A stretch of DNA of 64,000 bases, from assembly GCF_000430045.1 (NCBI RefSeq), contig NZ_KE387023.1:1269174-1333173 (forward strand), in the 5' to 3' direction. How positions within the stretch are numbered: the stretch's first letter is position 1; each line of letters begins with the position of its first letter. Under the pieces are notes generated by a model, which was given only the letters and a program-made list of their open reading frames with translations, did no database searches and was not told the origin of the DNA. This document shows positions 4,458 to 27,117 of this stretch, piece by piece. The position numbers were made by a program, and so were the translations under genes. The DNA comes from Calidithermus chliarophilus DSM 9957 (GTDB lineage: Bacteria; Deinococcota; Deinococci; Deinococcales; Thermaceae).

Positions 4458-5405
4458 ATGCTCCACGACACCAAAAGCTGGCTGGACGAAGAGCTCGAGG
4501 CCGAGACGGGTCTCGAGGACGACCCCGAGACCCGGCAGCACTTCGCCGGGCGCGCCCACCGCTTAGCCCGCAAGCCCCCCCGCCGCCGCTCGGTCAAGAA
4601 GCTGTTGGAAGAGGGCCTCAAAGACCCCCGCGCCCCCAAGTTCGGCGACCCGGGCCTGCAGAGCCTTTACGAGAAAGAACAGTTCAGCGAGCTGCTGTGG
4701 GAGCTGCGCAGCGGCAAGGAGGCCACCGTCTACGTGGTGCGGGCCACCGAGAAGTCCTGGCCCGATAACCCCGAGGCCCTGCTGGCGGCCAAGCTCTACG
4801 TCGACAGCCGGGTGCGCTCGTTCAAGAACGACGCGCTCTACCGCCAGGGCCGCTTCATCGGCAACCAGCGGATGGAGAAGGCCATCGACCAGCGCAGCCA
4901 GTTCGGCATCAGCGCCCAGAACGTGCTGTGGGTGGAGGAGGAGTACCGCCAGCTCCACGCGCTGCACCAACTGGGCGTGCCCGTACCCAAGCCCGTCGCC
5001 CACGCGGGCAACGTGATCCTGATGGAGTTCGTGGGCGACGAGGACGGCCCCGCCCCGCGCCTCTCGGAGGCGGGCCTGAGCCGGGAGGAGGCCCAGGAGG
5101 CGCTCGAGCAGGCCGTTCGCAACCTGGGCCTGATCCTCTCGGCGGGCAAGATCCACGGTGACTACTCGACCTTCAACCTGCTGTGGCACGAGGGCCGGGT
5201 GGTGGTCATCGACTTCCCGCAGATGGTGGAGTGGGACAAGAACCCCCTGGCGATGCAGATTTTGCAGCGCGACGTGCGGGGCCTGTGTCGTACGTTCGGC
5301 CACCTGGGCCTCCACCCAAAGCCCGAGGCGGTGCTGCGCCAGGTCTGGCAAATTGCCCATGCCAACCCCACCCGCTTCACCCCCATGGAGGTGAGTTACC
5401 TGTGA
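4458..5405 (+). CDS. RIO1-family atypical protein kinase
   Basis: A 315-residue RIO-type serine kinase. The flexible P-loop motif SGKEATVY starts at residue 85; the catalytic loop is HGDYSTFN (D235) and the metal-binding Asp is in VVIDFPQ (D252). The RIO-characteristic flexible loop lies between, near residues 110-150. Archaeal and eukaryotic RIO kinases act in small-subunit maturation; bacterial substrates are poorly known. I prefer the ATG at 4458 (GAGG at 4446-4449) to the TTG at 4431, which lies in the attenuator tail. The stop codon overlaps the GTG of the next gene by 4 nt, so it is translationally coupled to a GNAT gene, an unusual pairing. Confidence 0.9.
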   Translation: MLHDTKSWLDEELEAETGLEDDPETRQHFAGRAHRLARKPPRRRSVKKLLEEGLKDPRAPKFGDPGLQSLYEKEQFSELLWELRSGKEATVYVVRATEKSWPDNPEALLAAKLYVDSRVRSFKNDALYRQGRFIGNQRMEKAIDQRSQFGISAQNVLWVEEEYRQLHALHQLGVPVPKPVAHAGNVILMEFVGDEDGPAPRLSEAGLSREEAQEALEQAVRNLGLILSAGKIHGDYSTFNLLWHEGRVVVIDFPQMVEWDKNPLAMQILQRDVRGLCRTFGHLGLHPKPEAVLRQVWQIAHANPTRFTPMEVSYL

Positions 5406-6349
5406 ACATCCGGCCTTTCGACTTCAGCGACGGCGACTACGCGCTCTACGTGCGGCTCAACAACGCGGTGTACCCCGACCGGCCCCGCACCCTGGAGGCC
5501 CTTCGCCACTTCGACGCCACCAAGGGCCCCGACGAGATCGCCCAGACCTTCTTCGTGGAGCACGGCGGTGAGGCGGTGGGCTGGTTCGCCTTCATGACCC
5601 CCCGCTTCAACCCGGTGCCGGGGCAGCTCGAGGTGGAGTGGGGCCTGCTGGCGGGCCACGAGGGCTTGGCCGAGGCGCTGTGGGGGGTGCTCGAGCGCGA
5701 GATCGCCCCCCACCGCCCCGAGGCGCTGGTGAGCCGGGTGCGCGAGGACTGGCCCCAGGCCGCCTTCTACGCCGCGCAGGGCTTCGAAATCTACGACCGG
5801 ATGTGGGCCAGTACGCTTGACCTCGAGCGCTTCGACCCCGCCCCCTTCCGGCGGCCCCTGCCCGAGCCCGTCAGGATCGGCACCCTGGCCGACCTCGACT
5901 ACCGCAGCGAGGCGGTGCAGCGGTGCTACTACGCCCTGATCGCGGCCCTGCTGCGCGACGTGCCCTCGGCCCAGCCGGTGGAGGTGTGGCCCTTCGAGGT
6001 GTGGCAGGAGCGGGTCATGAGCGACCGGAACATGATCCCCGAGGCCAACTTCATCGCCTTCGAGGGGGAGGCTATGGTGGGGGTGTCGCAGTTGTGGAGG
6101 TCGCCGCGCCCGCAGACCCTCCAGACCGGCCTCACCGGGGTGCTGCCCTCGCACCGGCGCCTGGGCATCGCCCTCGCCCTCAAGCTGCGGGCCCTCGAGC
6201 ACGCCCGGCAGCAGGGCTACCGCTACGTGCGCACCAACAACCACCAGGTCAACCGCCCCATGCTCGCCATCAACGAGGCGCTGGGCTTCGAGAAAGAACC
6301 CGCCCAGCTCCACCTCAAGAAAAACCTGCTCGTCCGGGAGGAAACGTGA
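5402..6349 (+). CDS. Double-GNAT acetyltransferase (array member 1)
   Basis: A 315-residue protein with two GNAT folds. The N-terminal copy (1-150) has lost the acetyl-CoA pyrophosphate-binding R/QxxGxG/A motif (it reads LAGHEGLAEAL), while the C-terminal copy (~165-315) keeps it as SHRRLGIALALK and ends with the array-wide signature NRPMLAINEALGF. One active site is therefore expected. The GTG start overlaps the rioA stop and has GGAGGTG upstream. The acyl acceptor is unknown. Mycothiol synthase has the same two-GNAT layout, but nothing in this neighbourhood indicates mycothiol synthesis. Confidence 0.85.
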   Translation: MNIRPFDFSDGDYALYVRLNNAVYPDRPRTLEALRHFDATKGPDEIAQTFFVEHGGEAVGWFAFMTPRFNPVPGQLEVEWGLLAGHEGLAEALWGVLEREIAPHRPEALVSRVREDWPQAAFYAAQGFEIYDRMWASTLDLERFDPAPFRRPLPEPVRIGTLADLDYRSEAVQRCYYALIAALLRDVPSAQPVEVWPFEVWQERVMSDRNMIPEANFIAFEGEAMVGVSQLWRSPRPQTLQTGLTGVLPSHRRLGIALALKLRALEHARQQGYRYVRTNNHQVNRPMLAINEALGFEKEPAQLHLKKNLLVREET

Positions 6350-7326
6350 AAAGCACCGTGAACCCGACCAACCTGACCATCCGCCCCTTCGCCGAGGCCG
6401 ACTACGCCGCCGCGGTGGAGGTCAACAACGCGGTCTACCCCGATTACCCCGCCTCGGTGGAGGAGTGGCGGCACACCGACCGCAACCGCGACCCCAAGTA
6501 CCGCTTCGCCCGCTTCGTGGCCGAGGCGGGGGGCCGGGTGGTGGGGGTGAGCCAGTACGGGCAGAGCGCCAGCAACTACCACCCGCGCAAGTTCTGGCTC
6601 GAGGTCTTGGTCCATCCCCAGCAGCAGGGCCAGGGCATCGGCAAGGCCCTGTACCAGCGGGTGCTGGACGCGGTGATCGCCTTCGACCCCCTCACGGTGC
6701 GGGCCGGGGTGCGCGAGGACCTGCAGCGCGGGGTGCGCTTCCTGCAAGAGCGCGGCTTCGCCGAGGAGCGGCGGGCCTGGGAGTCGCGGCTGGACGTGCA
6801 GGCCTTCGACCCCGCCCCCTACCTCCCCCTCCTCGAGCGCCTGGAGGCCGAGGGCTTCGAGTTCAAGAGCATCCGCGAGCTGGAGGCCGACCCCGAGCGC
6901 GACCGCAAGCTCTACGAGCTCGAGCTCGCCGCCGAGCGCGACATGCCCGCCCCCGACGCCTACACCGGCTACGACTTCGAGCACTTCGTCAGGCACTACC
7001 TGCAAAGCCCCGACCTCTCGCCCGATAGCTGGCTGGTGGCGCTCAAGGACGGGGAGTACCTGGCGGTGAGCACCATCTGGAAGGCGCAGGAGGGCGGCGA
7101 GCTCTACAACGGGGCCACCGGCACCCGCCCCGAGTGGCGCCGCCGGGGGCTGGCCCTGGCGCTCAAGGTGAGGAACCTGCTGTGGGCCAAGCGCGAGGGC
7201 TACGCCCAGATCAAGACCTGGAACGACTCGAGCAACCGGCCCATGCTCGCCATCAACGAGCGGCTGGGCTTCTGGAAGATGCCCGCCTGGATCACCTTCC
7301 GCAAGGACTTCGGGGACGGCGCATGA
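6346..7326 (+). CDS. Double-GNAT acetyltransferase (array member 2)
   Basis: A 326-residue two-domain GNAT protein. Both acetyl-CoA motifs are intact: QQQGQGIGKALY in the first domain and EWRRRGLALALK in the second, followed by NRPMLAINERLGF. The N-terminus reads TIRPFAEADYAAAVEV, the typical GNAT opening strand-helix. The GTG start at 6346 overlaps the previous stop by 4 nt with GGAGG just upstream; a GTG at 6358 is an alternative. A 63-nt stretch (6487-6549) is identical to member 7 at 11059-11121, suggesting recent duplication or gene conversion. Confidence 0.87.
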   Translation: MKSTVNPTNLTIRPFAEADYAAAVEVNNAVYPDYPASVEEWRHTDRNRDPKYRFARFVAEAGGRVVGVSQYGQSASNYHPRKFWLEVLVHPQQQGQGIGKALYQRVLDAVIAFDPLTVRAGVREDLQRGVRFLQERGFAEERRAWESRLDVQAFDPAPYLPLLERLEAEGFEFKSIRELEADPERDRKLYELELAAERDMPAPDAYTGYDFEHFVRHYLQSPDLSPDSWLVALKDGEYLAVSTIWKAQEGGELYNGATGTRPEWRRRGLALALKVRNLLWAKREGYAQIKTWNDSSNRPMLAINERLGFWKMPAWITFRKDFGDGA

Positions 7327-7838
7327 GCCCCGCCTTCCGGCCCTACCAGCCCCACGACCGCGAAGCCTGCCTCGCCGTCTTCCGCTCCAACGTGCCGCGC
7401 TACTTCGCCCCGCACGAGGAGGCCGAGTTCGCCGAGTTCCTGGACGAGCTGCCCTGCACCTACTTCGTGCTCGAGGCCGCGGGCGAGGTGCTGGGCTGCG
7501 GGGGCTACTACGTGGCCCCCGAGCGCGGGGAGGGCGGGCTGTGCTGGGGCATGGTGCACCGGCGCCACCACGGCGGCGGGCTGGGCCGGCAGCTGCTGCT
7601 GGAGCGCCTGTACCGCCTGGTCCAGCACCCCGAGGTGGCCTTCATCCGCCTGGACACCAGCCAGCACACCTGCGGCTTCTTCGAGAAGCTGGGTTTCGCC
7701 ACCATCAAAACCGAGTCTAACGGTTATGCTCCAGGCCTAGACCGCTACGACATGCAGCTATGGCTCGAGCCCGCCGCCCGCGCCCGCATCATGGCGGCCT
7801 GGCTCGAGGCGCAAGCCCTGCAAGGAGAACCTTCATGA
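7323..7838 (+). CDS. Single-domain GNAT acetyltransferase (array member 3)
   Basis: A 171-residue single GNAT domain, with the acetyl-CoA motif read as RHHGGGLGRQLL and a C-terminal CGFFEKLGF signature. It lacks the ALALK and PMLAIN features of the double-domain members, so it belongs to a different GNAT branch within the same operon. The ATG overlaps the previous stop (ATGA), and its own stop overlaps the next ATG in the same way, so members 1-4 and rioA form one translationally coupled run. Acceptor unknown. Confidence 0.87.
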   Translation: MSPAFRPYQPHDREACLAVFRSNVPRYFAPHEEAEFAEFLDELPCTYFVLEAAGEVLGCGGYYVAPERGEGGLCWGMVHRRHHGGGLGRQLLLERLYRLVQHPEVAFIRLDTSQHTCGFFEKLGFATIKTESNGYAPGLDRYDMQLWLEPAARARIMAAWLEAQALQGEPS

Positions 7839-8896
7839 TCAAGATTCGCCCCGTACATAAGCCCGCCGATTTCGCCGTGATCGCCCAGGTCCTCACCGCC
7901 GCCGAGCCCGAGTGGCCGGTCACCCCCGAGATGGTGGCGCGCTGGGACCAGCAGCGCAACCCCAAGTACCACAGCGCCGACTTCGTGGCCGAGTACCCCG
8001 ACGCCGGGGTGGTGGCGGTGGCCGGGCTGGGCGAGGACGACTGGGCCTGGGAAGAGGGCAAGTACTGGGTCAACGTGCGCGTACACCCCGGCTTCCGCGG
8101 CAAGGGCATCGGCCGCGCCCTCTACGAGCACCTGATGGCCCACCTCCAGACCCAAGCCCCCGTGGTGCCCAAGAAGGTGCTGTGCATGTTCGGGGAGGAC
8201 AAGCCCGAGACCCGGGCCTTCGTGGAGCGGCGGGGCTTCGTGCTCGAGTGGAAGCGCTACGAGTCGCGCCTGCAGACCCAGGGCTTCGACTTCGCCCCCT
8301 ACGCCCACATCGAGCAGCAGGTGGCGGAGGCGGGGCTGGAGATCAGGAGCCTGGCCGAGCTGATGGCCGCCGACCCCCAGGCCGCGCGCAAGCTGTGGGA
8401 GCTCGACTGGATCCTCTTCCAGGACGTGCCCATGGGCGTGACCTTCACCAAGCGCGAGTTCGAGCAGTGGATGAAGGAGGAGCTCGACGACCCCCACTTC
8501 ATCAAGGAGGCCAGCTTCGTCGCCCTCGACCCCCGGCGCGACGACCCCCTCACCGGCAGCTTCGTGGGCTACACCAGCCTGATGAAGAACCCCGGCGGCT
8601 TCTGGGTGATCGGCATGACCGGGGTGCTGCGCGAGTACCGCGGCAAGGGCTTGGCCAAGGCGCTCAAGCTGCGGGGGATGCGCTACGTGCAGGAGCACGG
8701 CGGCGGCGAGATCCGCACCTTCAACGACCCGCCCAACTTCGTGATGTACGGCATGAACCTCGCCATCGGCTTCCAGCCCTACCCCTCGAGGCTGCGCTAC
8801 ATGAAGCGCCTCGACGACCAGCCGGTCGAGCCCTTCGACGAGAGCAAGTACCGGCGGGGCCGCGAGGAGCCCGACTACGAGAAGGCCGAGGGCTAG
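7835..8896 (+). CDS. Double-GNAT acetyltransferase (array member 4)
   Basis: A 353-residue two-domain GNAT protein with motifs GFRGKGIGRALY and EYRGKGLAKALK. The C-terminal signature diverges: the Pro-Met-Leu-Ala-Ile-Asn element is replaced by NFVMYGMNLAIGF, and there is a ~35-residue charged tail absent from the others. It is the last gene of the rioA operon and ends 4 nt inside a convergent small membrane gene. The substrate is unknown; the altered signature suggests a different acceptor pocket. Confidence 0.86.
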   Translation: MIKIRPVHKPADFAVIAQVLTAAEPEWPVTPEMVARWDQQRNPKYHSADFVAEYPDAGVVAVAGLGEDDWAWEEGKYWVNVRVHPGFRGKGIGRALYEHLMAHLQTQAPVVPKKVLCMFGEDKPETRAFVERRGFVLEWKRYESRLQTQGFDFAPYAHIEQQVAEAGLEIRSLAELMAADPQAARKLWELDWILFQDVPMGVTFTKREFEQWMKEELDDPHFIKEASFVALDPRRDDPLTGSFVGYTSLMKNPGGFWVIGMTGVLREYRGKGLAKALKLRGMRYVQEHGGGEIRTFNDPPNFVMYGMNLAIGFQPYPSRLRYMKRLDDQPVEPFDESKYRRGREEPDYEKAEG

Positions 8897-9087
8897 TCCC
8901 GCAGGCCGAACAGGCGGCTGACCATGTAGTCGATGAGCAGGAAGAGCACCACCAGCAACAGCAGCAGCCCCCACCAGGGCATCTGCACCCAGACCACCAC
9001 GAACAGCCGCTCGAGCACCTTGTAGAGGATGAATCCGAAGATCAGCGTGGTGACCAGGCTGGCCAGAAAACGGCGGGCTTTGTCCAC
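8893..9087 (-). CDS. Small two-segment membrane protein, 64 aa
   Basis: Two hydrophobic segments (about residues 8-28 and 35-55) separated by VVWVQMPWW, with Lys/Arg at the N-terminus. The start is GTG at 9087. TATTCT (9094-9099) lies 6 nt upstream, giving a leaderless transcript, and this supports it as a real gene in the GNAT intergenic space. It overlaps the 3' end of GNAT member 4 by 4 nt on the opposite strand. No family recognised. Confidence 0.65.
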   Translation of the reverse strand: MDKARRFLASLVTTLIFGFILYKVLERLFVVVWVQMPWWGLLLLLVVLFLLIDYMVSRLFGLRD

Positions 9088-9118
9088 GCCCTAAGAATAG
9101 CCGACCGCCGGAGAAAGT

Positions 9119-10084
9119 ATGAAAACGCTCAACCTGACCGTTCGCCCTTTTGAAGAACGCGACTACGCCGCCATCGCCGAGGTGTTCAAGGCGGCCTGGC
9201 CCGACGAGGCCCACACCGAGGCCCGCTTGCGCGAGGACGACGACCACGCCCCCGAGGTCAAGTGGGGGCGCTTCGTGGCCGAGCTCGACGGGCGCATGGT
9301 GGGCCACGCCGAATACACCCAGTTCGAGGGGATGTACCACCCCCAGAAGTTCGCGGCCTGGGTCACGGTGCGGCCCGAGTTCCGCGGCCAGGGCATCGGC
9401 AAGGCCCTCTATGCCCGGCTGATGGAGGCCCTCGAGCCCCACGACCCGATTTCCATCCTGAGCACGGCCCGCGAGGACCAGGCCGCAGCCCTCGCCTGGC
9501 TGCAAAAGCTGGGCTACGAGGAGAAGATGCGCTACTGGGAGTCGCGCCTCGACCTGGCCGCCTTCGACTTCGCCCCCTGGGCGGGCCGCATCGAGGCCGT
9601 GGAGGGGGCGGGCTTCGAGCTCAGGAGCCTGAAGGAGCTCGAGCCTGATCCCGAGCACCGGCGCAAGCTGTACGACCTCTGGCTCGAGGCCCGCCTCGAC
9701 GTGCCCCGCCCCGACGCCATGAGCGAGGTGTCGTTCGAGGAGTACTGCCGGTGGGTCTTCGAGAGCCAATACTACCTGCCCGAGGCCCACTTCGTGGCGG
9801 TGGAGGGCTCGAGCGGCCGGTACGTCGCGCTGAGCACCCTGTGGAAGACCGACGGCGACTACCTGGCCACCGGCCTGACCGGGACCCGCCGGGCCTACCG
9901 GCGCAAGGGGCTGGCGCTGGCCCTCAAGCTCAAGGGCATCCGCTTCGCCAAGGAGCACGGGGCCCGCGAGATCCGCACCGGCAACGAGGCGGGCAACCGG
10001 CCCATGCTCGCCATCAACGAGGCGCTGGGCTTCGTCAAGCAGCCCGCCTGGATCGACTTCGTCAAGGTCTTCCGCGAGGGCTGA
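9119..10084 (+). CDS. Double-GNAT acetyltransferase (array member 5)
   Basis: A 321-residue two-domain GNAT protein. The first motif is EFRGQGIGKALYARLM and the second AYRRKGLALALK, followed by NRPMLAINEALGFVKQPAW, nearly the same ending as member 10. The ATG follows GGAG with a short spacer. It opens the second GNAT operon (members 5-8), with gaps of 33, 11 and 2 nt to the following genes. It is divergent from the small membrane gene across only 31 bp. Acceptor unknown. Confidence 0.87.
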   Translation: MKTLNLTVRPFEERDYAAIAEVFKAAWPDEAHTEARLREDDDHAPEVKWGRFVAELDGRMVGHAEYTQFEGMYHPQKFAAWVTVRPEFRGQGIGKALYARLMEALEPHDPISILSTAREDQAAALAWLQKLGYEEKMRYWESRLDLAAFDFAPWAGRIEAVEGAGFELRSLKELEPDPEHRRKLYDLWLEARLDVPRPDAMSEVSFEEYCRWVFESQYYLPEAHFVAVEGSSGRYVALSTLWKTDGDYLATGLTGTRRAYRRKGLALALKLKGIRFAKEHGAREIRTGNEAGNRPMLAINEALGFVKQPAWIDFVKVFREG

Positions 10085-10117
10085 ACGCCCCGGCACCCCC
10101 ATCAAGGAGCACCCGTC

Positions 10118-10927
10118 ATGCAATTGCAATCGCTGGGTTACCGCACCGACCTGATGTTCCGCCGCTTCGAGGGGGAGGTGGTGGGGCGCGAGCGCTACCT
10201 GGCCGTGCGCACCCCCCGCAACCCCGGCTACCGCTGGGGCAACTTCCTGATCTTCGACCGCCCCCCGCAGGCGGGCGACCTCGAGCGCTGGAAGGCGCTC
10301 TTCGCCCGCGAGATCGGGACCCCGCCCGCCTACGCCCACTTCGCCTTCGGCTGGGACGGCGCGGAGCCGGGCGAGGTGGGGCCTTTCCTCGAAGCCGGCT
10401 TCCGCCTGGAGCAAAGCGCGGTGCTCAGCGCCCGCAGCGTGGTCCAGCCGCCCAAGCTCAATACGGCCTGCGAGGTGCGCCCCCTGCTCAGCGACGCCGA
10501 CTGGGAAGAGCGCGTCGAGCTGGCGCTGGCCGTCAACGCCGCCGAGCCCCCCGAGAAGCGCGAGGGGGAGGGCTACCGCGACTTCGTGGCTCGCAAGGCC
10601 GAGGAGTACCGCCGCATGGTCGCGGCCGGGCTGGGGCAGTGGTTCGGGGCCTACCTCGAGGGCCGCCTGGCCGCCACGCTGGGCCTGTTCGTGTGGGAGG
10701 GGCTGGGGCGCTTCCAGACCGTCGAGACCCACCCCGCTTTTCGCCGCCGGGGCCTGTGCGGCACCCTGGTCTACCACACCGCCCGCATCGGCCTGCACGA
10801 GATGGGCGCCCAGACCCTGGTGATGGTGGCCGACCCCGGCTACGTCGCCATCCGGATCTACGAGTCGGTGGGCTTCCGCGTCAGCGAGCCCATGTGGGGG
10901 CTCGAGTGGCACCCCACCAACGGCTAG
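10118..10927 (+). CDS. GNAT acetyltransferase with divergent N-terminal domain (array member 6)
   Basis: A 269-residue protein. The C-terminal half is a clear GNAT domain (AFRRRGLCGTLVYHTA, then YESVGFRVSEPMW). The N-terminal ~115 residues look like a GNAT-like fold without an acetyl-CoA motif (FRRFEGEVVGRERYLAVRTP). It differs from its neighbours in lacking ALALK and PMLAIN. AGGAG lies 8 nt before the ATG. It resembles the bipartite GNATs found singly in other bacteria. Function unknown. Confidence 0.84.
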   Translation: MQLQSLGYRTDLMFRRFEGEVVGRERYLAVRTPRNPGYRWGNFLIFDRPPQAGDLERWKALFAREIGTPPAYAHFAFGWDGAEPGEVGPFLEAGFRLEQSAVLSARSVVQPPKLNTACEVRPLLSDADWEERVELALAVNAAEPPEKREGEGYRDFVARKAEEYRRMVAAGLGQWFGAYLEGRLAATLGLFVWEGLGRFQTVETHPAFRRRGLCGTLVYHTARIGLHEMGAQTLVMVADPGYVAIRIYESVGFRVSEPMWGLEWHPTNG

Positions 10928-10938
10928 AGGAACACCCT

Positions 10939-11889
10939 ATGAGCTTTCGCATCCGCCCTTTCGAGCCCGCCGATTACCCGGCCATGGTCGAACTCTGGAA
11001 CCTCCACAACCCCGACTGGTCCCGCACCGTGGCCGAGGAGCAGAACAGCGACGCCAAGCGCGACCCCAAGTACCGCTTCGCCCGCTTCGTGGCCGAGGCG
11101 GGGGGCCGGGTGGTGGGGGTGGCGCAGCACGACCAGAGCCCCGGCTCCTACCACCCCCAGCGCTTCTCGCTCGAGCTCTACCTGCACCCCGACTTCCTGG
11201 GCCGGGGCCTGGGCAAGGCCCTCTACGCCCGCCTGATGGAAGCCCTCGAGCCCTACCGGCCCCAGCACCTGCTGGCCCAGGTGCGCGAGTCCAGCGAGCG
11301 CGGGCTGCGCTTCGCGCGGGAGCGGGGCTTCCGCGAACTCAAGCGCGACTTCGTGAGCACCCTCGACCTGCGCTGCGCCGACCTGAGCCCCTACGCGGGC
11401 CTGGAGGAGAAGCTGGCCGCCGAGGGCATCCGGCTGGCGTCGTTCGCCCGGTTGCTCGAGGCCGACCCCGACGCCGCCTGCAAGCTCCACGAGCTCTTCT
11501 CCGACTTCCGCCTCGACATCCCCCGCGCCGCCCCGCCCACCCCCATCACCCTCGACTTCTTCGTGCGCAACATCCTGCAAGGCCCCGACTACGACCCCCG
11601 GCTCTTCCTGGTGGCCCTCGAGGGCGAGCGCTGGGTGGGCATGAGCGGCTTGTTCCGCGTGGGCGACTCCAAGGATCTCGACCTGTGGATCACCGGCGTG
11701 CGGCGGGAGTACCGGGGCCGCAAGATCGCGCTGGCGCTGAAGGTGGCGGGGGTCCGGCTGGCGCGGGAGCTGGGCTTCGAGAGCATCCGCACCGACAACG
11801 ACTCGCGCAACGCCCCCATGCTGGCGATCAACCGAAAGCTGGGCTTCGTGCCCGGCCCCGCCAGCCTGACGCTGCAAAAGGAGCTGTGA
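10939..11889 (+). CDS. Double-GNAT acetyltransferase (array member 7)
   Basis: A 316-residue two-domain GNAT protein. The N-terminal domain has DFLGRGLGKALYARLM. The C-terminal domain has EYRGRKIALALK, where the second Gly of the acetyl-CoA loop is Lys, so activity of that half is doubtful. The ending is NAPMLAINRKLGF. Bases 11059-11121 are identical to member 2 (6487-6549) although the flanks differ, a local conversion tract. It is separated from member 6 by 11 nt and from member 8 by 2 nt. Confidence 0.87.
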   Translation: MSFRIRPFEPADYPAMVELWNLHNPDWSRTVAEEQNSDAKRDPKYRFARFVAEAGGRVVGVAQHDQSPGSYHPQRFSLELYLHPDFLGRGLGKALYARLMEALEPYRPQHLLAQVRESSERGLRFARERGFRELKRDFVSTLDLRCADLSPYAGLEEKLAAEGIRLASFARLLEADPDAACKLHELFSDFRLDIPRAAPPTPITLDFFVRNILQGPDYDPRLFLVALEGERWVGMSGLFRVGDSKDLDLWITGVRREYRGRKIALALKVAGVRLARELGFESIRTDNDSRNAPMLAINRKLGFVPGPASLTLQKEL

Positions 11890-11891
11890 GC

Positions 11892-12845
11892 ATGGGCCTC
11901 CGCTTCCGGGAAGCGAGTTTCCCCGCCGACTACGCGGCCATGGCGGCGGTGCTGAGCGCGGTCTACCCCGAGTGGCCCCGCAGCGCCCAGGACCTCGAGC
12001 GCGACGACGCCACCCGCGACCCCCGCTACTACTGGAAGGTCTTCCTGGCCGAAGAGGACGGGGAGGTGGTGGGGGTGGCGAGCGCCGGCCACCTGAGCGC
12101 GATGCACCGGGAAGGCCGTTTCGGGGTGCGGCTGAGCGTGCTCCCGCACGAGCGCAACCGGGGCATCGGCGGCCTGATGTACGAGCGGCTGCTCGAGCAC
12201 CTGCGCTCCCTGGGCGCCCGCGAGCTGCTCTGCTCGCTCGACGAGCGGCGCGGCGAGGCCCTGGCCTTCGCCCGGCACCGGGGCTTCGAGGAGTTCTGGC
12301 GGATGTTCGAATCGCGGCTCGACCCCAAGGCCTTCGACTTCACGCCCTACGCCCTTCTCGAGCAGCGCCTGGGGGCCGAAGGTTACGCCCTGCGCACCTA
12401 TGCCGAACTCGCCGACCCTCAGGGCGAGCAGAAGTTCTACGAGTTGCATTGGCAGCTCATGCAGGACATCCCCATGGACGAGCCCCCCCAGCGCGAGCCC
12501 CTCGAGCAGTGGCGCAAGCAGTGGACCCAAAACCCCCGCGCCCTGCCCGAGGCCTGCTACGTCGCCCTCAAGGACGGGCGGTGGGTGGGCATCTCTAACC
12601 TGTGGGCCTACGACGGCTACTACCTCATCGCCCTCACCGGGGTGCTGCGCGAGCACCGGGGCAGGTCGCTGGCGCTGGCGCTCAAGCTGGCCGGGATCCG
12701 CTACGCCCTGGAGCACGGGGGCCTCGAGATCCGCACCTTCAACGACTCGCCCAACCGGGCCATGCTGGGCCTCAACCGCAAGCTGGGCTTCGTGCCCCAG
12801 GCCGCCACCATCCAGATGCGCAAGACGCTGGCCGCCGAGCTCTGA
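11892..12845 (+). CDS. Double-GNAT acetyltransferase (array member 8)
   Basis: A 317-residue two-domain GNAT protein with ERNRGIGGLMYERLL in domain 1 and EHRGRSLALALK in domain 2, where Gly is replaced by Ser. It ends NRAMLGLNRKLGF. It is the last gene of the second GNAT run and is convergent with the split chromate transporter genes. The start lies 2 nt after the previous stop, so it is probably translated by reinitiation. Acceptor unknown. Confidence 0.86.
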   Translation: MGLRFREASFPADYAAMAAVLSAVYPEWPRSAQDLERDDATRDPRYYWKVFLAEEDGEVVGVASAGHLSAMHREGRFGVRLSVLPHERNRGIGGLMYERLLEHLRSLGARELLCSLDERRGEALAFARHRGFEEFWRMFESRLDPKAFDFTPYALLEQRLGAEGYALRTYAELADPQGEQKFYELHWQLMQDIPMDEPPQREPLEQWRKQWTQNPRALPEACYVALKDGRWVGISNLWAYDGYYLIALTGVLREHRGRSLALALKLAGIRYALEHGGLEIRTFNDSPNRAMLGLNRKLGFVPQAATIQMRKTLAAEL

Positions 12846-12875
12846 AGCCGGCCCCTGCCCAGAGGTAAGGACGTG

Positions 12876-13400
12876 CTATCCCCAAAGCAGGCTGACCGAC
12901 AAGCCCAGCACGCCCCCGCCCAGCATCACCGCCAGGATGTTGGCCCCGCGGTAGATCAGGAGGGTCGCCAGCGCCATCACCGCGAAGCTCCAGGGCTTGT
13001 CCATCCCCAGCTCGATCAGCACCAGCAGCATGCTCAGCGAGAGACCCATGCTCACCGGGACCAGCGCCTTGCGCAGGGCGCGGCTCCAGCGGGCGCGGGC
13101 CATCCACCGCCAGCCGTGCACCAGCACGACGGCCCCGGCGGCCCCCGGCAGGAACATGCCCAGCAGCGCGGCCAGCGCCCCCAGCGGCCCGGCGGCGCTC
13201 AGGCCGTAGAACACCACCGCCAGCATGTTGGGCCCCGGCACGAACTGGCCCAGCGCGAAGCCGTCGGCGAACTGCTGCGGCGTGACCCAGCCCTGGGCGA
13301 TGAGGGTGCGGGCCATCTCGGGCAGGTTGGCCATCCCGCCCCCGAAGCTGATGAGCCCCAGCCGCAGGAAGGTGAGGAAGACCTCGAGCCCCTCGCTCAC
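12876..13400 (-). CDS. Chromate transporter, C-terminal-type half (short-chain CHR protein)
   Basis: A 174-residue membrane protein of the CHR family. It contains FLRLGLISFGGGMANLPE and VTPQQFADGFALGQFVPGPN, the conserved CHR motif block, and five to six hydrophobic segments. The family exports chromate, and short-chain members work as pairs. The GTG start overlaps the stop of the upstream half by 4 nt, so the two halves are translationally coupled. Longer readings of the frame are shadows. It sits between GNAT members 8 and 9 on the opposite strand. Confidence 0.85.
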   Translation of the reverse strand: MSEGLEVFLTFLRLGLISFGGGMANLPEMARTLIAQGWVTPQQFADGFALGQFVPGPNMLAVVFYGLSAAGPLGALAALLGMFLPGAAGAVVLVHGWRWMARARWSRALRKALVPVSMGLSLSMLLVLIELGMDKPWSFAVMALATLLIYRGANILAVMLGGGVLGLSVSLLWG

Positions 13401-13942
13401 CCCGCCTCGGCCTCCCGCCAGTACAGCGCCACCCCCACCGGCACGGTGAGCAGCAGCACCAGGAGCAGCGACCAGTGCAGCAACCCGTAGGTCACGAACA
13501 CCACCAGCGCCAGCAGCACCGCCTTGAGCGAGTCCAGCCCGATCCGGGCCTGGCGCAGCACGGTAGCCAGGATCAGCCCGATGGCCGCCGCCGCCACCCC
13601 GCTCAGCGCACCCTCGACGCTCGAGCCCGGCAGCGCCCCGAAGCGGAAGTAGGCCAGGCTCAGGAGCAGCATCAGGCTCACGCCGGGCAAGAGCACCCCC
13701 GCCAGGGCCGCGACCCCGCCCAAAGCCCCGCCCAGCCGCGCGCCCAGGTGGGCGGCCAGGTTGGCGAACACCGGCCCCGGCAGCACCCGGCACAGGGCAG
13801 TGGTTTCGAGGAACTCCCGCTCGCTCAGCCAGCCCCGCCGCACCACCATGAGCTCGTAGATGTGGGCGGTGCCCCCGCCGCCGAAGGCGGTGAGGCCGAC
13901 GTAGAGAAAAGCGGTAAACAATTGAGGCAACGGCACGCGCAC
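13397..13942 (-). CDS. Chromate transporter, N-terminal-type half (short-chain CHR protein)
   Basis: A ~181-residue CHR-family membrane protein containing FLYVGLTAFGGGGTAHIYEL and ETTALCRVLPGPVFANLAA, with the Pro-Gly-Pro motif typical of CHR proteins. It forms a pair with the downstream half through a 4-nt overlap. The start is uncertain: GTG at 13942 or 13936, neither with a good Shine-Dalgarno. An ATG further upstream would run into the divergent GNAT gene. Chromate export is inferred from the family; sulfate-like anions are possible. Confidence 0.8.
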   Translation of the reverse strand: MRVPLPQLFTAFLYVGLTAFGGGGTAHIYELMVVRRGWLSEREFLETTALCRVLPGPVFANLAAHLGARLGGALGGVAALAGVLLPGVSLMLLLSLAYFRFGALPGSSVEGALSGVAAAAIGLILATVLRQARIGLDSLKAVLLALVVFVTYGLLHWSLLLVLLLTVPVGVALYWREAEAG

Positions 13943-13960
13943 GCTGGAAGTGAGGATACT

Positions 13961-14869
13961 ATGCTCAGGCCCGCCCATCCCGCCGATTACCCGGCCATCG
14001 CCCGCATCCACAACACGCTGTGGCCCGAGCACTTCCGCAGCCTGGAGGACTTCGCCCACCTCGACCGCCACAACCCCGTGCGGCGCTTCCTGCTCGAGCT
14101 CGACGGGCCGGTGGCGGTGGCCGGCCTGCGTGACCGGGGTGCTTTCTACGAGTTCGAAGTCGGCGTGCTCCCCGAGTTCGAGGGCCGGGGCCTGGGGCGC
14201 GAACTCTACGCCCGCTTGCTGCGCGAGCTCGAGGCCCTGCCCCCCAAGCGCACCCTGGCCTTCGTGAAGGAGAGCCACCCCTACGCCCTGGCCTTCGCCG
14301 CCCGGCGGGGCTGGCGGGAGTCGCTGCGCGGCTACCACCAGCACCTCGACCTCGCCGCCTTCGACCCGGCGCCCTTCGAGGGCCTGAGGCGGCGGCTCGA
14401 GGCCGAGGGCTACGCCTTCCACAGCTACGCCGTCCTCCCCGACCCCGAGCGCCTGTACCCCCTGCTGCGGCAGACCTACCTGGACGTGCCCCGCTCCGGC
14501 GAGGCCGAGCCGCTAAGCCTGGAGGAGTTCCGCCGCCGCTTCGTCCTGCACCCCGCCTTCCACCCTCAGACCAGCTTCGTCGCCGTGCGGGAGGGGGAGT
14601 GGGCGGGCCTGAGCCTGGTCCGGCGGCGCGGCGAGAGCGGGCTGCACTCGGCCATGACCGGCGTGCTCCCCGCGCACCGGGGCCGGGGCCTGGCGACGGC
14701 GCTCAAGGTTTGCTCGATCCTCGAGGCCCGCCGCCTGGGTTTCGCCGAACTCCACACCAACAACGCCGCCGGCAACGCCCCCATGCTGGCGGTCAACGCC
14801 CGGCTGGGCTTCGTCCGCGAGCCCGCCCAGATCGAACTCGAACTCACCAAGGAGTCGCTATGGACCTGA
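13961..14869 (+). CDS. Double-GNAT acetyltransferase (array member 9)
   Basis: A 302-residue two-domain GNAT protein, the shortest double-domain member. Motifs are EFEGRGLGRELYARLL and AHRGRGLATALK, both intact, ending NAPMLAVNARLGF. The ATG has GTGAGG upstream. It overlaps member 10 by 10 nt. Its 5' end is divergent from the chromate transporter pair with under 20 bp between them, so the two promoters must overlap. Confidence 0.86.
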   Translation: MLRPAHPADYPAIARIHNTLWPEHFRSLEDFAHLDRHNPVRRFLLELDGPVAVAGLRDRGAFYEFEVGVLPEFEGRGLGRELYARLLRELEALPPKRTLAFVKESHPYALAFAARRGWRESLRGYHQHLDLAAFDPAPFEGLRRRLEAEGYAFHSYAVLPDPERLYPLLRQTYLDVPRSGEAEPLSLEEFRRRFVLHPAFHPQTSFVAVREGEWAGLSLVRRRGESGLHSAMTGVLPAHRGRGLATALKVCSILEARRLGFAELHTNNAAGNAPMLAVNARLGFVREPAQIELELTKESLWT

Positions 14870-15816
14870 TCATCCGGCCCTTCACCCCCGAGGACCACCT
14901 GCCCGCCCTCGAGATCCACAACGCCATCTGGCCCGATACCCCCCAGACCCTCGAGGACCGGCTCGAGGCCGACGGGCGCCGCCGCGCCGACCTGGTGTTC
15001 CGCCGCTACGCCGCCGAGGTGGGCGGCCAGGTGGTGGCGACGGGCTCCTTCCAGCACATGGAGTGGTTCTTCCACCCCCGCAAGTTCGCCATCGGCATGC
15101 AGGTCCACCCCCGGTGGCAGGGCCGGGGCGTCGGCGGGCGGCTCTGGCGCCACCTGCTGGCCGAGCTCGAGGCCTTCGAGCCCCTCAGCCTGCACGCCTC
15201 GGTGCGCGAGGACAAGAACGGCTGGGCCGTGGCCCGGCACTACGGCTTCGCCGAGGAGAGCCGGGCCTGGGAGTCGCTGCTCGACCTCAGCACCTTCGAC
15301 CCCGCGCCCTTCGGCGACGCGGTGGAGCGGGTGCGGGCGGCGGGCTACCGCATCCTGAGCTGGGCCGAGCTGGGCGACACTCCCGAGAATCGCCGCAGGC
15401 TGTGGGAGCTCGACGTCGAGGTCTCCGAGGACGTGCCCCACACCCACCCCTTCACCATGCCCACCCTCGAGCGCTACGAGCAACAGGTCTTCGGCAGCCG
15501 CGACTTCCAGCCCGAGACCCTGCTCGTCGCGCTGTCCCCGGACGGGGAGTTCGCCGGGGTCAGCCAGCTCTGGAAAACCCAGCCCGAGCACCGCCTGCAC
15601 AACGGCCTCACCGGCGTGCGCCGCGCCCACCGCCGCAAGGGGCTGGCCCTGGCGATGAAGCTGGAGAACGTGGCGCGGGCCAGGGCCCTGGGCAAGCGCG
15701 AGATCCGCACCTTCAACGACCAGACCAACCGGCCCATGCTCGCCATCAACGAGGCCATGGGCTTCGTCAAGCAGCCCGCCTGGATCGACGTGGTGCGGGT
15801 GCTGCGCTCGGAGTAG
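14860..15816 (+). CDS. Double-GNAT acetyltransferase (array member 10)
   Basis: A 318-residue two-domain GNAT protein with RWQGRGVGGRLWRHLL and AHRRKGLALAMK motifs and the ending NRPMLAINEAMGFVKQPAW, closest to member 5. The ATG lies inside the 3' end of member 9 with AAGGAG 5 nt upstream. A small inverted repeat follows the stop (15816-15832, GACTCCC/GGGAGTC), which may end the transcript. Acceptor unknown. Confidence 0.87.
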   Translation: MDLIIRPFTPEDHLPALEIHNAIWPDTPQTLEDRLEADGRRRADLVFRRYAAEVGGQVVATGSFQHMEWFFHPRKFAIGMQVHPRWQGRGVGGRLWRHLLAELEAFEPLSLHASVREDKNGWAVARHYGFAEESRAWESLLDLSTFDPAPFGDAVERVRAAGYRILSWAELGDTPENRRRLWELDVEVSEDVPHTHPFTMPTLERYEQQVFGSRDFQPETLLVALSPDGEFAGVSQLWKTQPEHRLHNGLTGVRRAHRRKGLALAMKLENVARARALGKREIRTFNDQTNRPMLAINEAMGFVKQPAWIDVVRVLRSE

Positions 15817-15907
15817 ACTCCCTGCGGGAGTCGCCGATAGCCGACAGCCACGCCGGGCACGCCCTTCGGTTAATGGCGGGTGCTTCCGCGGGAGGTTAAA
15901 TACAGGC

Positions 15908-16687
15908 ATGGATTACGTGGTGGGGGATGTTCACGGCTGCTTGCCCGCGCTGGTGGCGCTGCTCCAGCGGGCGGGGCTGCTGGGGCCGCGCGCGGAGTGG
16001 ACCGGCGGCGAGGCCCGGTTGTGGCTGCTGGGCGACTACACCGACCGCGGCCCCGACGGGGTGGGGGTGATCGAGCTGCTGATGCGCCTGGAGGAGCAGG
16101 CCTACCGCGCCGGGGGTGCGGTGCACGCCCTGCTGGGCAACCACGACGTGCTGCTGCTGGAGGCCTACCACTTCCCCGACGAGCCCAGCGGCTTCCGCCA
16201 CGACGGCATCACCCTCACCTTCCGCGAGCTGTGGCTGCGGGCGCGGGGCCAGCCCGCCGACCTCGAGCGCCTGCGCCCCGAGCACGCCGAGTGGCTGGCC
16301 CACCGCCCCGCCCTGGCCCGGGTGGAGGGCACCCTGCTGATGCACGCCGACAGCGACTTCTACCTCGAGTACGGCTCGAGCCTCGGCGAGATCAACGCCA
16401 ACATCCGCGCGGTGCTCCACTCGCGCGACCCCGTGCGCTGGGACAGGCTCGAGGAGCGCTTCGCCTCGAGGATGGCCTTCTGGAACGGCGGGGCCCCCAA
16501 GGCCCGTGGGTTGCTGGCCCTGCTGGGCGCGGGCCGCCTGGTCCACGGCCACACCCCCATCTACAGCGTGCTCGAGCGCCACCCCGAGGAGGTCCGCGAG
16601 CCGCTGGTCTACGCCGAGGGGCTGTGCGTCAACCTCGACCACTGCCTGTACCAGGGGGGACCGGGGTTCGTGTACCGGTTGGACTAG
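15908..16687 (+). CDS. PPP-type metallophosphatase (calcineurin-like)
   Basis: A 259-residue member of the calcineurin-like phosphoesterase superfamily. The three dimetal-site motifs are present: GDVHG near the N-terminus, GDYTDRG and GNHD. The later His motifs MHAD and HGHTP also match. The GD-GDxxDRG-GNHD set is that of PPP serine/threonine and diadenosine tetraphosphate phosphatases. It lies right after the GNAT array whose other end is a protein kinase; whether they share substrates is unknown. GGGAGG is about 12 nt before the ATG. Confidence 0.87.
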   Translation: MDYVVGDVHGCLPALVALLQRAGLLGPRAEWTGGEARLWLLGDYTDRGPDGVGVIELLMRLEEQAYRAGGAVHALLGNHDVLLLEAYHFPDEPSGFRHDGITLTFRELWLRARGQPADLERLRPEHAEWLAHRPALARVEGTLLMHADSDFYLEYGSSLGEINANIRAVLHSRDPVRWDRLEERFASRMAFWNGGAPKARGLLALLGAGRLVHGHTPIYSVLERHPEEVREPLVYAEGLCVNLDHCLYQGGPGFVYRLD

Positions 16688-16689
16688 GG

Positions 16690-16860
16690 CGCGGGGGGTA
16701 GAACATGTGAGGCGCCGGATGCCGGAAGATGCCCAACGCCGAACGCCCAACGCCCGGCGATGGACCATGGCTGGGGCGAGAACTTTCCCCGAGCGAGGCG
16801 TCACCCAGGGTCCTGTGGCCGCTTTTGCTGAGGTCTGATAGCTGATAGCTGCTAGCTTTT
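16690..16860. repeat. Degenerate heptamer repeat, copy 2
   Basis: Carries GCCGAAC/GCCCAAC units at ~16735-16760 and TGATAGC/TGCTAGC units at ~16835-16858, the same families as elsewhere but shorter. It lies between two same-strand genes. Confidence 0.55.
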
Positions 16861-16874
16861 CCAACGGAGATTCC

Positions 16875-17972
16875 ATGAGCCTGCCTTACGTCAAACTTTC
16901 CGGTTCGCCCTACGACCAGGGCCTTACCCAGGGCCGCGCCCTGGCCGACGCCATCGCGCACAACCTCGAGGTCTACTTCCGCCGCTTCGAGGTCGAGGGC
17001 AAGCTGCCCCCTGCCGAAGCCCGGCGGCGTGGGGAGGTCTACCTGGGGGCCATCCGAGGGCAGAGCCCGGCCTATGCCCAGGGCATCGAGGGGATCGCGG
17101 CGGGCTCGGGGCAGAGCCTCGTCGACATCGCCACCCTCAACGTGCGCTACGAGATCCTCTACTACCAGTTCGCCCAGGACGACACCGTCGTCTACCACGG
17201 CCACGAGGCCCCCAACGGCTGCACCGCCTTCGCCCTGCTGCCCGCCCACAGCGCCGACGGGGCGTTGTGGATGGGCCAGAACTGGGACTGGATCGAGGAC
17301 GCCAAGGGCGCCCTCCAGCACGTCACCGAGCCCGACGGGACGCGGGTGCTGGCCTTCACCGAGGCCGGGATCTTCGGCGGCAAGATCGGGCTGAACTCGC
17401 ACGGGCTGGGCCTGTGCATCAACGGGCTGGTGGCGGTGGGCGACAACTGGGCGGGGCTGGGCAAGCCCTTCCACCTGCGCACCTACGAGGCCCTGCGCTC
17501 GCGCACGCTGGCCGAGGCCGAGGCCAAGGTGAGCGCCGCCCCGCGCACCGCCTCCGGCAACTTCCTGCTGGGGCAGGGGGAGGTGGCCGTAGACCTCGAG
17601 GTTTCCCCCGCCAAGGTGGTGCGCTGGCAGGACGAGCGCCAACTCGTCCACGCCAACCACTTCCTCGACCCCCAGGCCCACGGCATCGAGGTGCCGCCCA
17701 TCGAGTGGCTCGACCGCTCCGACCACCGCCACCAGCGGCTCGAGGAGCGCCTGCGGCAGGTGGAAAAGCCGGGCCTGGCCGACCTTCAGGAAGCCCTGCG
17801 CGACCGCGACGGCGCGCCCTACGCCGTCTGCCGCACCGCCAGCGCCGAGGAGTACGAGCTGGGCGAGCCCTACCGCACCGTGGCCTCGGTGATCCTGAAC
17901 CTCCGCACCCTCGAGCTATGGATCTCCGACGGCCCGCCCCACGAGAACCCGTACGAGCACTACGCTCTGTGA
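16875..17972 (+). CDS. C45-family autoproteolytic acyltransferase/hydrolase
   Basis: A 365-residue Ntn-hydrolase. The Asn-Gly-Cys-Thr motif (NGCTAFALLP, Gly115-Cys116) matches the self-cleavage site of acyl-CoA:6-aminopenicillanate acyltransferase, where the Cys becomes the N-terminal nucleophile. WMGQNWDW and IGLNSHGLGLCINGL are also family blocks. The length suits the family, and no signal peptide is seen, so it is probably cytoplasmic. In bacteria these enzymes act on N-acyl amides of unknown type. It is followed 6 nt later by a GNAT gene, a possible acyl-transfer pairing. Confidence 0.85.
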   Translation: MSLPYVKLSGSPYDQGLTQGRALADAIAHNLEVYFRRFEVEGKLPPAEARRRGEVYLGAIRGQSPAYAQGIEGIAAGSGQSLVDIATLNVRYEILYYQFAQDDTVVYHGHEAPNGCTAFALLPAHSADGALWMGQNWDWIEDAKGALQHVTEPDGTRVLAFTEAGIFGGKIGLNSHGLGLCINGLVAVGDNWAGLGKPFHLRTYEALRSRTLAEAEAKVSAAPRTASGNFLLGQGEVAVDLEVSPAKVVRWQDERQLVHANHFLDPQAHGIEVPPIEWLDRSDHRHQRLEERLRQVEKPGLADLQEALRDRDGAPYAVCRTASAEEYELGEPYRTVASVILNLRTLELWISDGPPHENPYEHYAL

Positions 17973-17978
17973 ACCCTT

Positions 17979-18767
17979 ATGGTCATTGACCTCGAACTCG
18001 CCCGACGCCTCGAGCGCGTGGACGCGCTCAACTCCGCCGACTACGCCCTCACCCTCGCCCGCCTCGAGCCCGGCAGCCGCGCCGCCCTGGTCCCGCTGGG
18101 GCCGGGCTACGCCTTCGGCATGGGGCCCGACTACCCCATCAACAAGATGGCCTGCCTCGAGTTCACCGAGCCCGACGAGGCCCTGCTCGAGCAGGGCGAG
18201 GCCTTCCTGGCCGAACTCGGCGTGCCCGCCCGCATCTCCTTCTGCCCGCTAGGCCGCAGCGCCGTGCTGGAGCTGCTGGCGCGGCGGGGCTACCAACCGA
18301 GGCACTTCATCAACCTGTACGTGCGCCGGGTCGAGCCGCCCGCCGAGGCCCCCTTGCCCAGAGGCCTCGAGATCGGCCCGCCCCGCGACCTCGAGGAGTG
18401 GCTGGCCGCGAGCCGGGCGGCCTGGGAGCTGAGGGGCACCCTGCAGGAGGCGCGCTTCGGGCAGGTCGCGCTCGAGCGCCCCGAGGCGGTGAGCCTGGTG
18501 GGCCGCGTGGAAGGCCAGGCCGTAGCGGTGGGGGCCATGCGCGTGCGCGAGGGGATCGCCTTCCTCAACGGCGCGGCCACCGCGCCCGCCCACCGCGGGC
18601 GCGGCATCCAGGCCGCCCTGCTGCGCGAGCGGCTGCGCCGGGCCTGGGAGGGGGGGTGCGAGTACGCGGCGATCTCCGCCACCCCCGGCAGCACCTCGGC
18701 CCGCAACATCGAGCGCCAGGGCTTCCGCCTGGCCTACACCCGCCTCTCCCTCGAGAAACCGCGGTGA
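17979..18767 (+). CDS. GNAT acetyltransferase (member 11, outside the main array)
   Basis: A 262-residue protein. The C-terminal half is a GNAT domain with AHRGRGIQAALLRERL and NIERQGFRLAYTR. The N-terminal half is GNAT-like without a clear acetyl-CoA loop. It resembles member 6 more than the ALALK type. The ATG lies 6 nt after the C45 gene, and the stop overlaps the GTG of the next gene. Acceptor unknown. Confidence 0.84.
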   Translation: MVIDLELARRLERVDALNSADYALTLARLEPGSRAALVPLGPGYAFGMGPDYPINKMACLEFTEPDEALLEQGEAFLAELGVPARISFCPLGRSAVLELLARRGYQPRHFINLYVRRVEPPAEAPLPRGLEIGPPRDLEEWLAASRAAWELRGTLQEARFGQVALERPEAVSLVGRVEGQAVAVGAMRVREGIAFLNGAATAPAHRGRGIQAALLRERLRRAWEGGCEYAAISATPGSTSARNIERQGFRLAYTRLSLEKPR

Positions 18768-19168
18768 GGGTCCGGGCCAGCCTCGAGGTGCGCCTGCTCA
18801 AGGCCCTCGACCCCGAGCGCTTCAGCAAGGTGGTGGGCCTGTGGCCCACCCGCGCCCGCCGCAAGGGCGAGGAGGGGGCCGAGGCCGCGCTTTGGGCGCT
18901 GGAAACCCCCTGGCTCGAGGCCCCCGACCCCCGAGCCGCCCTGCGAACCCTCCTCGAGCCCCTGAAAGCCAAGGCTCCCCTGCTGGCCGTGCTGGTCGAG
19001 CAAAAGGCCATCCGGGTCGGGTTCTCCTGCACCGTCGAGGCGGCGGGGGCCGCCTCCCTCGAGCTCGACCCCGACACCCTCGCCCTCCTCGCCCGGCTCG
19101 AGGCGGCGGTGCGGCTCGAGCTGCGCCCCTCGCCGGTCCCCGACCCCCCGGGCCGGCCCCTGAACTAA
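18764..19168 (+). CDS. DUF4279-like protein
   Basis: A 134-residue cytoplasmic protein. Its N-terminus ([20 protein letters not shown], then [14 protein letters not shown]) matches the layout of DUF4279 proteins: a beta-strand, a Leu-Asp-Pro helix start, G-x-x-P-T-R and a Lys-Gly turn, followed by WALETPW. Function of that family is unknown. The GTG start overlaps the previous stop by 4 nt, so it is the last gene of the C45-GNAT operon. Confidence 0.65.
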
Positions 19169-19190: not shown

Positions 19191-19670
19191 ATGGCCCGCA
19201 TCCACGTCGCCCAGGGCGACATCACCGACTTCGCAGGGGACGCCATCGTCAACGCGGCGAACAACCACCTCGTCCTCGGCTCCGGGGTGGCCGGGGCCAT
19301 CGCCCGCAAGGGCGGCCCCGAGATCCAGGAGGAGTGCTACCGCCACGGCAAGATCCGCGTCGGGGAGGCCGCCATCACCGGCGCGGGCCGCCTGAGGGCC
19401 CGGCACGTCATCCACGCGGCGGCCATGGGCGACGAGCCCGCCACCCTCCAAACCGTCCGCTCCGCCACCCGCCACGCCCTGCGCCTGGCGCTCGAGCACG
19501 GCCTCAAAACCGTCGCCTTCCCCCTCCTGGGCACCGGCGTCGCCGGCCTCCCCCGCGACGGCGTGATCGGCGTGATGCTCGAGGAACTCCGCTCCGCCCA
19601 CGAAAGCCTGGAAGTAACCCTCTACGGCTACTCCCAAGCCGACGCAGACGCGATAAGGGCACAGCTTTAG
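19191..19670 (+). CDS. Macro-domain protein (ADP-ribose binding/deacylating)
   Basis: A 159-residue stand-alone macro domain. [19 protein letters not shown] holds the adenine-binding Asp and the Asn-Ala-Ala-Asn catalytic segment. GSGVAGAI is the diphosphate loop and [12 protein letters not shown] the second loop. Such proteins bind ADP-ribose, and many hydrolyse O-acetyl-ADP-ribose or ADP-ribosyl esters. Proximity to acetyltransferases is suggestive but the gene has its own promoter. It is followed by a palindromic, possibly mobile, segment. Confidence 0.9.

Positions 19671-22601: not shown

Positions 22602-22605
<4 letters not shown>
21385..22605 (-). CDS. coxE: VWA-domain protein, CoxE-like
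   Basis: A 406-residue protein with a C-terminal von Willebrand A-type domain. The MIDAS motif DVSGSM and a later SDGWDQGDP are present. Such CoxE proteins act with a MoxR/CoxD AAA+ ATPase to mature the active site of CO-dehydrogenase-type molybdenum hydroxylases. The ATG overlaps the stop of the upstream ATPase gene (ATGA), so the two are coupled. It is the last gene of the cox-like cluster. Confidence 0.85.
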
Positions 22606-23507
<902 letters not shown>

Positions 23508-23544
23508 GGCTCCATTTTCGCCGAATGCCGAGGGCCAAACGCAA

Positions 23545-23754
23545 GGCGAGCGACACTTAGCTTTCAGCCATCAGCGGTCAGCCGTCAGCTAGTGGCCTGT
23601 GGTTACCCCCACCCCGACCCTCCCCGCACGCGGGGAGGGTTTATCCCCCCAGCCCCCCTTGCTAAGGGGGGAACAAGGCGTTTGGCGTTTGGCGTACGGC
23701 GTAGGACGTACGACGTCCGACCCGCGCCCGGCATTCAGCACTCGATCCCGAGCG
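23545..23754. repeat. Composite heptamer repeat, copy 4 (inside the cox gene run)
   Basis: Carries the CTCCCCGCACGCGGGGAG and CCCCCCTTGCTAAGGGGGG hairpin modules (23620-23681) followed by GCGTTTG and GTACGAC heptamers. It lies between two same-strand cox genes, so it must be transcribed if they share an mRNA, and the hairpins could reduce read-through. Confidence 0.8.
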
Positions 23755-24615: not shown

Positions 24616-24619
24616 GGAA

Positions 24620-27093: not shown

Positions 27094-27117
27094 ATTTGTG
27101 CCCCCTTCGGTCGCGCT

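Follow-up and report, generated by a model that had tools for sequence, protein, structure and literature searches.

An old, partly lost array of tandem GNAT genes beside a C45-family gene in Calidithermus chliarophilus and its relatives

The window analysed here is a 64,000-nt stretch of the Calidithermus chliarophilus DSM 9957 genome (contig NZ_KE387023.1, positions 1,269,174 to 1,333,173). It contains a row of eleven GNAT acetyltransferase genes, numbered m1 to m11 below, eight of which encode related double-domain proteins. Phylogenetic analysis of these paralogs shows that the double-GNAT subfamilies separated before the Thermaceae and its sister families split, stayed together beside a gene for a C45-family protein and were lost piecemeal in relatives. 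With a probability of about 0.5, we propose that the members are acetyl-CoA-dependent N-acetyltransferases acting on small-molecule amines, that the C-terminal domain would be the catalytic one and that the subfamilies would differ mainly in acceptor.

The double-GNAT family and its age

The eleven GNAT open reading frames (ORFs) lie at 5402-18767. Ten fall within 5402-15816 (10.4 kb) and the eleventh at 17979-18767, as an earlier note made from the sequence alone had described. All eleven products exceed the Pfam PF00583 gathering score. The whole C. chliarophilus genome has 58 GNAT-domain matches in 4.69 Mb, so the density of the array is far above chance. In an all-against-all BLAST comparison, the eight proteins m1, m2, m4, m5, m7, m8, m9 and m10 show 27-47% identity in full-length alignments; m3, m6 and m11 match these eight weakly and belong to other GNAT families. 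The row is thus mostly double-domain (eight of eleven), as noted earlier, and its proposed origin by duplication applies to the eight full-length paralogs but not to the other three. The second-domain signature, which the note had counted in seven members, is indeed shared, and all eight paralogs carry it in exact or loosened form. No ninth full-length copy was found in the C. chliarophilus genome, which outside the array gave short, weak matches only.

Our phylum sample comprised 111 Deinococcota genomes, 50 of them Thermaceae, and the order, class and phylum searches cover this same set. Genera of the Thermaceae sample are denoted g1-g4 (g3 is probably Meiothermus and g4 probably Thermus), and families f1-f4. 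In an IQ-TREE tree of 83 sequences, the window members are spread over distinct clades, alongside relatives that belong to other genera and families, and every one of the eight paralogs has relatives outside Calidithermus. Orthologs of m1 and m5 occur in most g2 and g3 genomes, those of m4 in five genomes of g1-g3 and in f3, those of m7 in g3 and f3, those of m2 in f2 and f3, those of m9 in f3 and those of m10 in g3; the orthology of m8 is loose, because it is sister to the m4 group. Constraining the 12 Calidithermus sequences to a single clade made the tree 924 log-likelihood units worse (approximately unbiased (AU) test, p-AU 3.5e-47), and constraining the 51 Thermaceae sequences in the same way made it 426 units worse (p-AU 2.6e-34). 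Separate trees for domain 1 and domain 2, a check that the note had called for, recovered mostly the same groups, although the domain-1 tree leaves m2 unplaced and the domain-2 tree m9; the two domains thus travelled together.

Based on the relatives outside the genus and the AU rejection of single-clade trees, the array is old and eroded rather than newly expanded. The earlier note had instead favored a Calidithermus-specific tandem expansion for a diversifying function. The array is the largest among the 111 genomes, and m2 and m7 have recently exchanged sequence, both of which would fit such an expansion; nevertheless, given the rejection of both the genus-only and the Thermaceae-only clade, we consider it extremely improbable. 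Transfer between families may have made a minor contribution to the pattern. The m2/m7 exchange is seen as a 63-nt tract in m2 (6487..6549, + strand) identical to 11059-11121 in m7. The longest tract in 200 synonymous-codon simulations was 47 nt, and C. roseus m2 differs over this tract, which is a probable gene conversion.

Distribution and loss among relatives

Family members are present in 19 of the 50 Thermaceae genomes and in 40 of all 111. C. chliarophilus has eight copies, C. roseus (G001) has four and the other array-bearing Thermaceae have two or three, and none was found in the 27 genomes of genus g4. One genome of family f3 (G056) has five copies in tandem, with rioA, the kinase-like gene that precedes m1 in the window, 1.1 kb upstream and the C45 gene 1.8 kb downstream. 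A single-protein scan matched C. roseus only. Viral contigs gave no family match, and four Deinococcus plasmid records match the family at 27-29% identity.

The C. roseus locus lacks m3, m7-m10 and the phosphatase gene, and its m11 ortholog (97% identical) is shortened to 35 codons right before the macro-domain gene (L041 16722-16826). Breakage of members in relatives, which the note had named as a possible objection, is not general: the ratio of nonsynonymous to synonymous substitution rates (dN/dS) relative to C. roseus is 0.21-0.44 for the four pairs m1, m2, m4 and m5, and in-frame stops elsewhere are isolated. From this comparison, these four members are under purifying selection. The corresponding values are 0.23 for m6, 0.19 for the C45 gene and 0.21 for rioA; the comparison covers genes with a close C. 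roseus ortholog, which m7-m10 do not have. Three related arrays from other genera contain an extra GNAT gene, 27-32% identical to the members, that is not in the window (G016, L029 11532-12419; G008, L026 6562; G003, L023 9040).

Losses also touch m1 and m5, which are found in the same 17 genomes. Both are absent from G011, which keeps other members. In G002, where other members are likewise kept, m1 is absent and an in-frame TAA interrupts the m5 ortholog (L022 8909-9994), possibly a joint decay of the two genes.

Gene organization and neighbours

Gene models were set by inspecting starts and overlaps. The features of the locus are as follows.

4458..5405, + strand: rioA, RIO1-family kinase-like (Pfam RIO1 4e-37); 4-nt overlap with m1
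5402..6349, + strand: m1, double GNAT with degenerate N-terminal P-loop and intact C-terminal domain; m1 clade
6346..7326, + strand: m2, double GNAT with the P-loops of both domains intact; m2 clade
7323..7838, + strand: m3, single-domain GNAT outside the paralog family
7835..8896, + strand: m4, double GNAT; m4 clade
9119..10084, + strand: m5, double GNAT
10118..10927, + strand: m6, GNAT of another family, domain recognisable in the C-terminal half only
10939..11889, + strand: m7, double GNAT, domain-2 P-loop RGRKIA (RGRGIA in orthologs); m7 clade
11892..12845, + strand: m8, double GNAT, domain-2 P-loop RGRSLA; sister to the m4 clade
~12876-13960, - strand: chrA (chromate-transporter) two-gene pair within the array, named by sequence reading only
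13961..14869, + strand: m9, double GNAT, grouping with a family-f3 copy in the full-length tree
14860..15816, + strand: m10, double GNAT, 10-nt overlap with m9; m10 clade
15908..16687, + strand: calcineurin-like metallophosphatase (Pfam Metallophos 1.8e-13), often a neighbour in Thermaceae by synteny
16875..17972, + strand: C45/AAT family autoproteolytic acyltransferase/hydrolase (NCBIfam C45_proenzyme; PDB 2x1d 4e-22)
17979..18767, + strand: m11, GNAT of another family, domain in the C-terminal half
19191..19670, + strand: macro-domain protein (Pfam Macro 7e-33), stable partner of the C45 gene

Overlaps of 4 nt (GTGA/ATGA) join rioA/m1, m1/m2, m2/m3 and m3/m4, and further same-strand runs follow from m5 to m8 and from m9 to m10. 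The row is not a single operon, because a minus-strand ORF at 8893-9087 splits m4 from m5 and the minus-strand chrA pair splits m8 from m9. A promoter and terminator scan detected nothing. The best conserved member is m5, at 93% identity to C. roseus and about 76% to genus g3. Relatives of m3 adjoin m4 in two other genomes.

The product of the C45 gene, a putative autoproteolytic enzyme, scores 248 bits against NF040521 (C45_proenzyme; cut-off 85) and contains a Gly-Cys pair (NGCTAF). This gene lies within 6 kb of a family GNAT in 17 genomes of families f1-f4, with gaps as short as 6 nt (G050) and 24 nt (G058); the two are within 13 kb in one more genome and on separate contigs in six. The coupling to a RIO kinase described in the note stands as a local arrangement, given the 4-nt overlaps from rioA through m4, but most array-bearing Thermaceae have no rioA match. 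The gene was matched in only five Thermaceae, always beside the array, a short rioA-like fragment adjoins the array in G018, and the product falls below the cut-off of the PA4780-type RIO1 model. The absence of rioA from most array-bearing Thermaceae rules out a RIO kinase as fixed partner, and C45 is the better-supported partner.

The 8893-9087 ORF encodes 64 aa with a hydrophobic stretch, likely a membrane protein, and the chrA pair is syntenic between the GNAT and C45 genes in many Thermaceae. An unannotated ORF of ~134 aa (18764-19168) overlaps the m11 stop (GTGA). Farther along, at ~22600-27690 on the minus strand, lie genes that, judged by their protein starts alone, resemble those of a molybdenum hydroxylase set (CO or xanthine dehydrogenase type) and of a MoxR-type ATPase. 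Among ten proteins scanned with PADLOC, the sole match was the macro-domain protein, a weak one to DarG (30 bits), so an anti-phage defence system was rejected.

Active sites and structural models

Conservation in at least 95% of the 75 sequences compared is seen at 15 residues, 14 of which lie C-terminal to domain 1, at m5 residues 196-305. These consist chiefly of the domain-2 P-loop (R261/A266/K270) and the T287-N289-N293-M296-N300-G304-F305 signature (m5 numbering). All eight double-domain members have the acetyl-CoA-binding P-loop consensus Q/R-x-x-G-x-G/A in domain 1, domain 2 or both. All 17 genomes with the m1 clade have lost its domain-1 loop and all 17 keep the domain-2 loop, and in the m5 clade both loops are kept in 18 of 19. 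The note had described loops as variously intact or broken. This holds for domain 1 of m1, and m7 and m8 do carry substitutions in domain 2; in these two, however, the sole change is at G264, a position that varies elsewhere too, R261, K270, N289, N293 and N300 are retained, and other m7-clade members keep the glycine. These are changes in single lineages at a position that varies, and they do not amount to clear loss of the site.

AlphaFold (AF2) models of m5 and m1, the structure prediction that the note had suggested, are both confident, with a predicted local distance difference test score (pLDDT) of 92. The best PDB matches to the m5 model are tandem GNATs, namely 3tt2, MAB_4324, ORF14 and MshD, and a glucosamine N-acetyltransferase. 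The family profile matches ORF14 at 1.6e-22 over positions 43-308 with the domain-2 signature aligned.

The suggestion of different acceptor pockets is weakly supported. The overall distribution of class-specific residues by region is not clearly uneven, and enrichment in the domain-2 alpha1-alpha2 segment, a region refined after a first look, depends on the cut-off chosen: p is 0.009 for the top 50, whereas for the top 30 it is 0.31 if m1 is counted and 0.003 if m1 is excluded.

Proposed function and alternatives

Knowledge of the GNAT family underlies the predictions of N-acetyl transfer and of domain-2 catalysis with an interdomain groove. We propose that (i) each protein would move an acetyl group from acetyl-CoA onto the amine of a small molecule, (ii) the C-terminal domain would hold the working acetyl-CoA site, (iii) the N-terminal domain would mainly form the other wall of the groove, as a pseudo-domain in the m1 clade, and (iv) the subfamilies would differ mainly in the acceptor taken. 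C-terminal catalysis is suggested by the conserved residues beyond domain 1 and by the m1 clade, which keeps only its second loop. Tandem GNATs usually have a single active domain, which in bacteria is often the C-terminal one (PMC12219266, PMC4964394, PMC9054821). More speculatively, the C45 enzyme might belong to this small-molecule economy too, by hydrolysing or transferring the acyl group, and a single pathway might use both m1 and m5. The widest form of this idea, an ancient Deinococcota N-acylation system in which distinct double-GNATs and C45 make and unmake undescribed N-acylated amines and m1, with its pseudo-acetyl-CoA domain, is an obligate partner of m5, seems to us doubtful.

Several observations weigh against parts of this proposal. 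Many GNATs have a catalytic Tyr at the position of domain-2 Asn300, which may mean a different chemistry. A domain-1 acetyl-CoA loop is retained by seven of the eight paralogs in the window, which leaves room for catalysis at two sites. The C45 gene lies 214 kb from the GNAT genes in G015 and persists with the macro-domain gene in G007, G010 and G014, where no array is detectable, so C45 does not depend on the GNATs. On the C45 tree, the m1/m5 pattern amounts to four independent changes, too few for significance (sign test, p 0.125), and at least two of them are losses of the whole array.

Detoxification of xenobiotics or antibiotics, with the members conferring resistance by acetylating ribosome-targeting or cationic amine compounds in the manner of PamZ, Eis or MAB_4324c, is unlikely though far from negligible. 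MAB_4324 is among the closest folds, and WhiB7 induces its gene, which gives modest relief of amikacin sensitivity (PMC10727445). The layout of m1, a pseudo-N-terminal and an active C-terminal domain, recurs in PamZ (PMC9054821), and MFS and ChrA genes are nearby. However, the AAC-type NCBIfam models, with cut-offs of 140-325 bits, give scores of just 21-25, the locus is not mobile but sits in a fixed chromosomal neighbourhood, and vertical inheritance with a conserved m1 and m5 core fits housekeeping better than drug defence. Other specific identities also failed: RimI scores are below cut-off, and the best MshD score is ~32 bits against an equivalog cut-off of 163 (TIGR03448).

That members differ yet stay clustered, that C45 is adjacent in four families and that m1 and m5 co-occur could also reflect a multi-step pathway in which members act on successive intermediates, with an m1/m5 core and C45 as the amide-cleaving or transferring step. 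Piecemeal gain and loss of members would be intolerable for a linear pathway, though, and no other obvious biosynthetic enzymes lie between the array genes, which makes this rather improbable. Still less probable is acetylation of proteins, e.g., at ribosomal or N-terminal targets under regulation by the coupled RIO kinase and phosphatase. The overlap of rioA with m1, its restriction within Thermaceae to sites beside the array and the RimI and Naa-like chains among the weak profile matches point in this direction; the absence of rioA from most array-bearing Thermaceae argues against it, as do the nearest structural matches of known substrate, which act on small molecules.

Relation to known systems

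Double-GNAT enzymes are common, and few have known substrates. The architecture is known, and the array is unusual. With full-length two-domain homology and the domain-2 signature (LLK; TANAEDNHPMIAVNAALGF), the members are tandem GNATs of the type of ORF14 from the clavulanic acid cluster of Streptomyces clavuligerus (PDB 2wpw/2wpx), which is of similar length, is the top sequence match of the family profile and also matches in fold (2e-20). ORF14 differs in being a lone gene in a beta-lactam cluster, with ~22% identity and no paralog array, and we know of no C45 neighbour. MAB_4324c of Mycobacterium abscessus (PDB 7q3a; fold match 6e-22) is likewise a tandem-repeat GNAT but a lone gene under WhiB7 with 23% identity; the purified protein is reported to be active and to acetylate amikacin mildly (PMC10727445). 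Mycothiol synthase MshD (PDB 1ozp; fold match 4e-17) is also a double GNAT, with a P-loop in both domains and an active C-terminal domain (PMC4964394), and all array members fall far below its cut-off. PamZ of Paenibacillus larvae (PMC9054821) combines the domains predicted for m1 but has ~275 aa and is an antibiotic self-resistance gene; the 50 fold matches listed for m5 do not include it. Expansion of GNAT paralogs is known from the phylum, and the report on Deinococcus counts scattered genes by COG (PMC1978522), with no description of a tandem double-GNAT array. Paper searches, which covered the open-access literature as opposed to subscription journals, turned up no account of such an array.

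The m1 clade offers a clean natural example of a pseudo-acetyl-CoA domain that has been conserved. In addition, the locus combines eight subfamilies that have separated naturally and whose orthologs are clear with a defined pattern of loss and a conserved acyltransferase/hydrolase neighbour, which makes the assignment of substrates testable by comparing genomes that carry different subsets.

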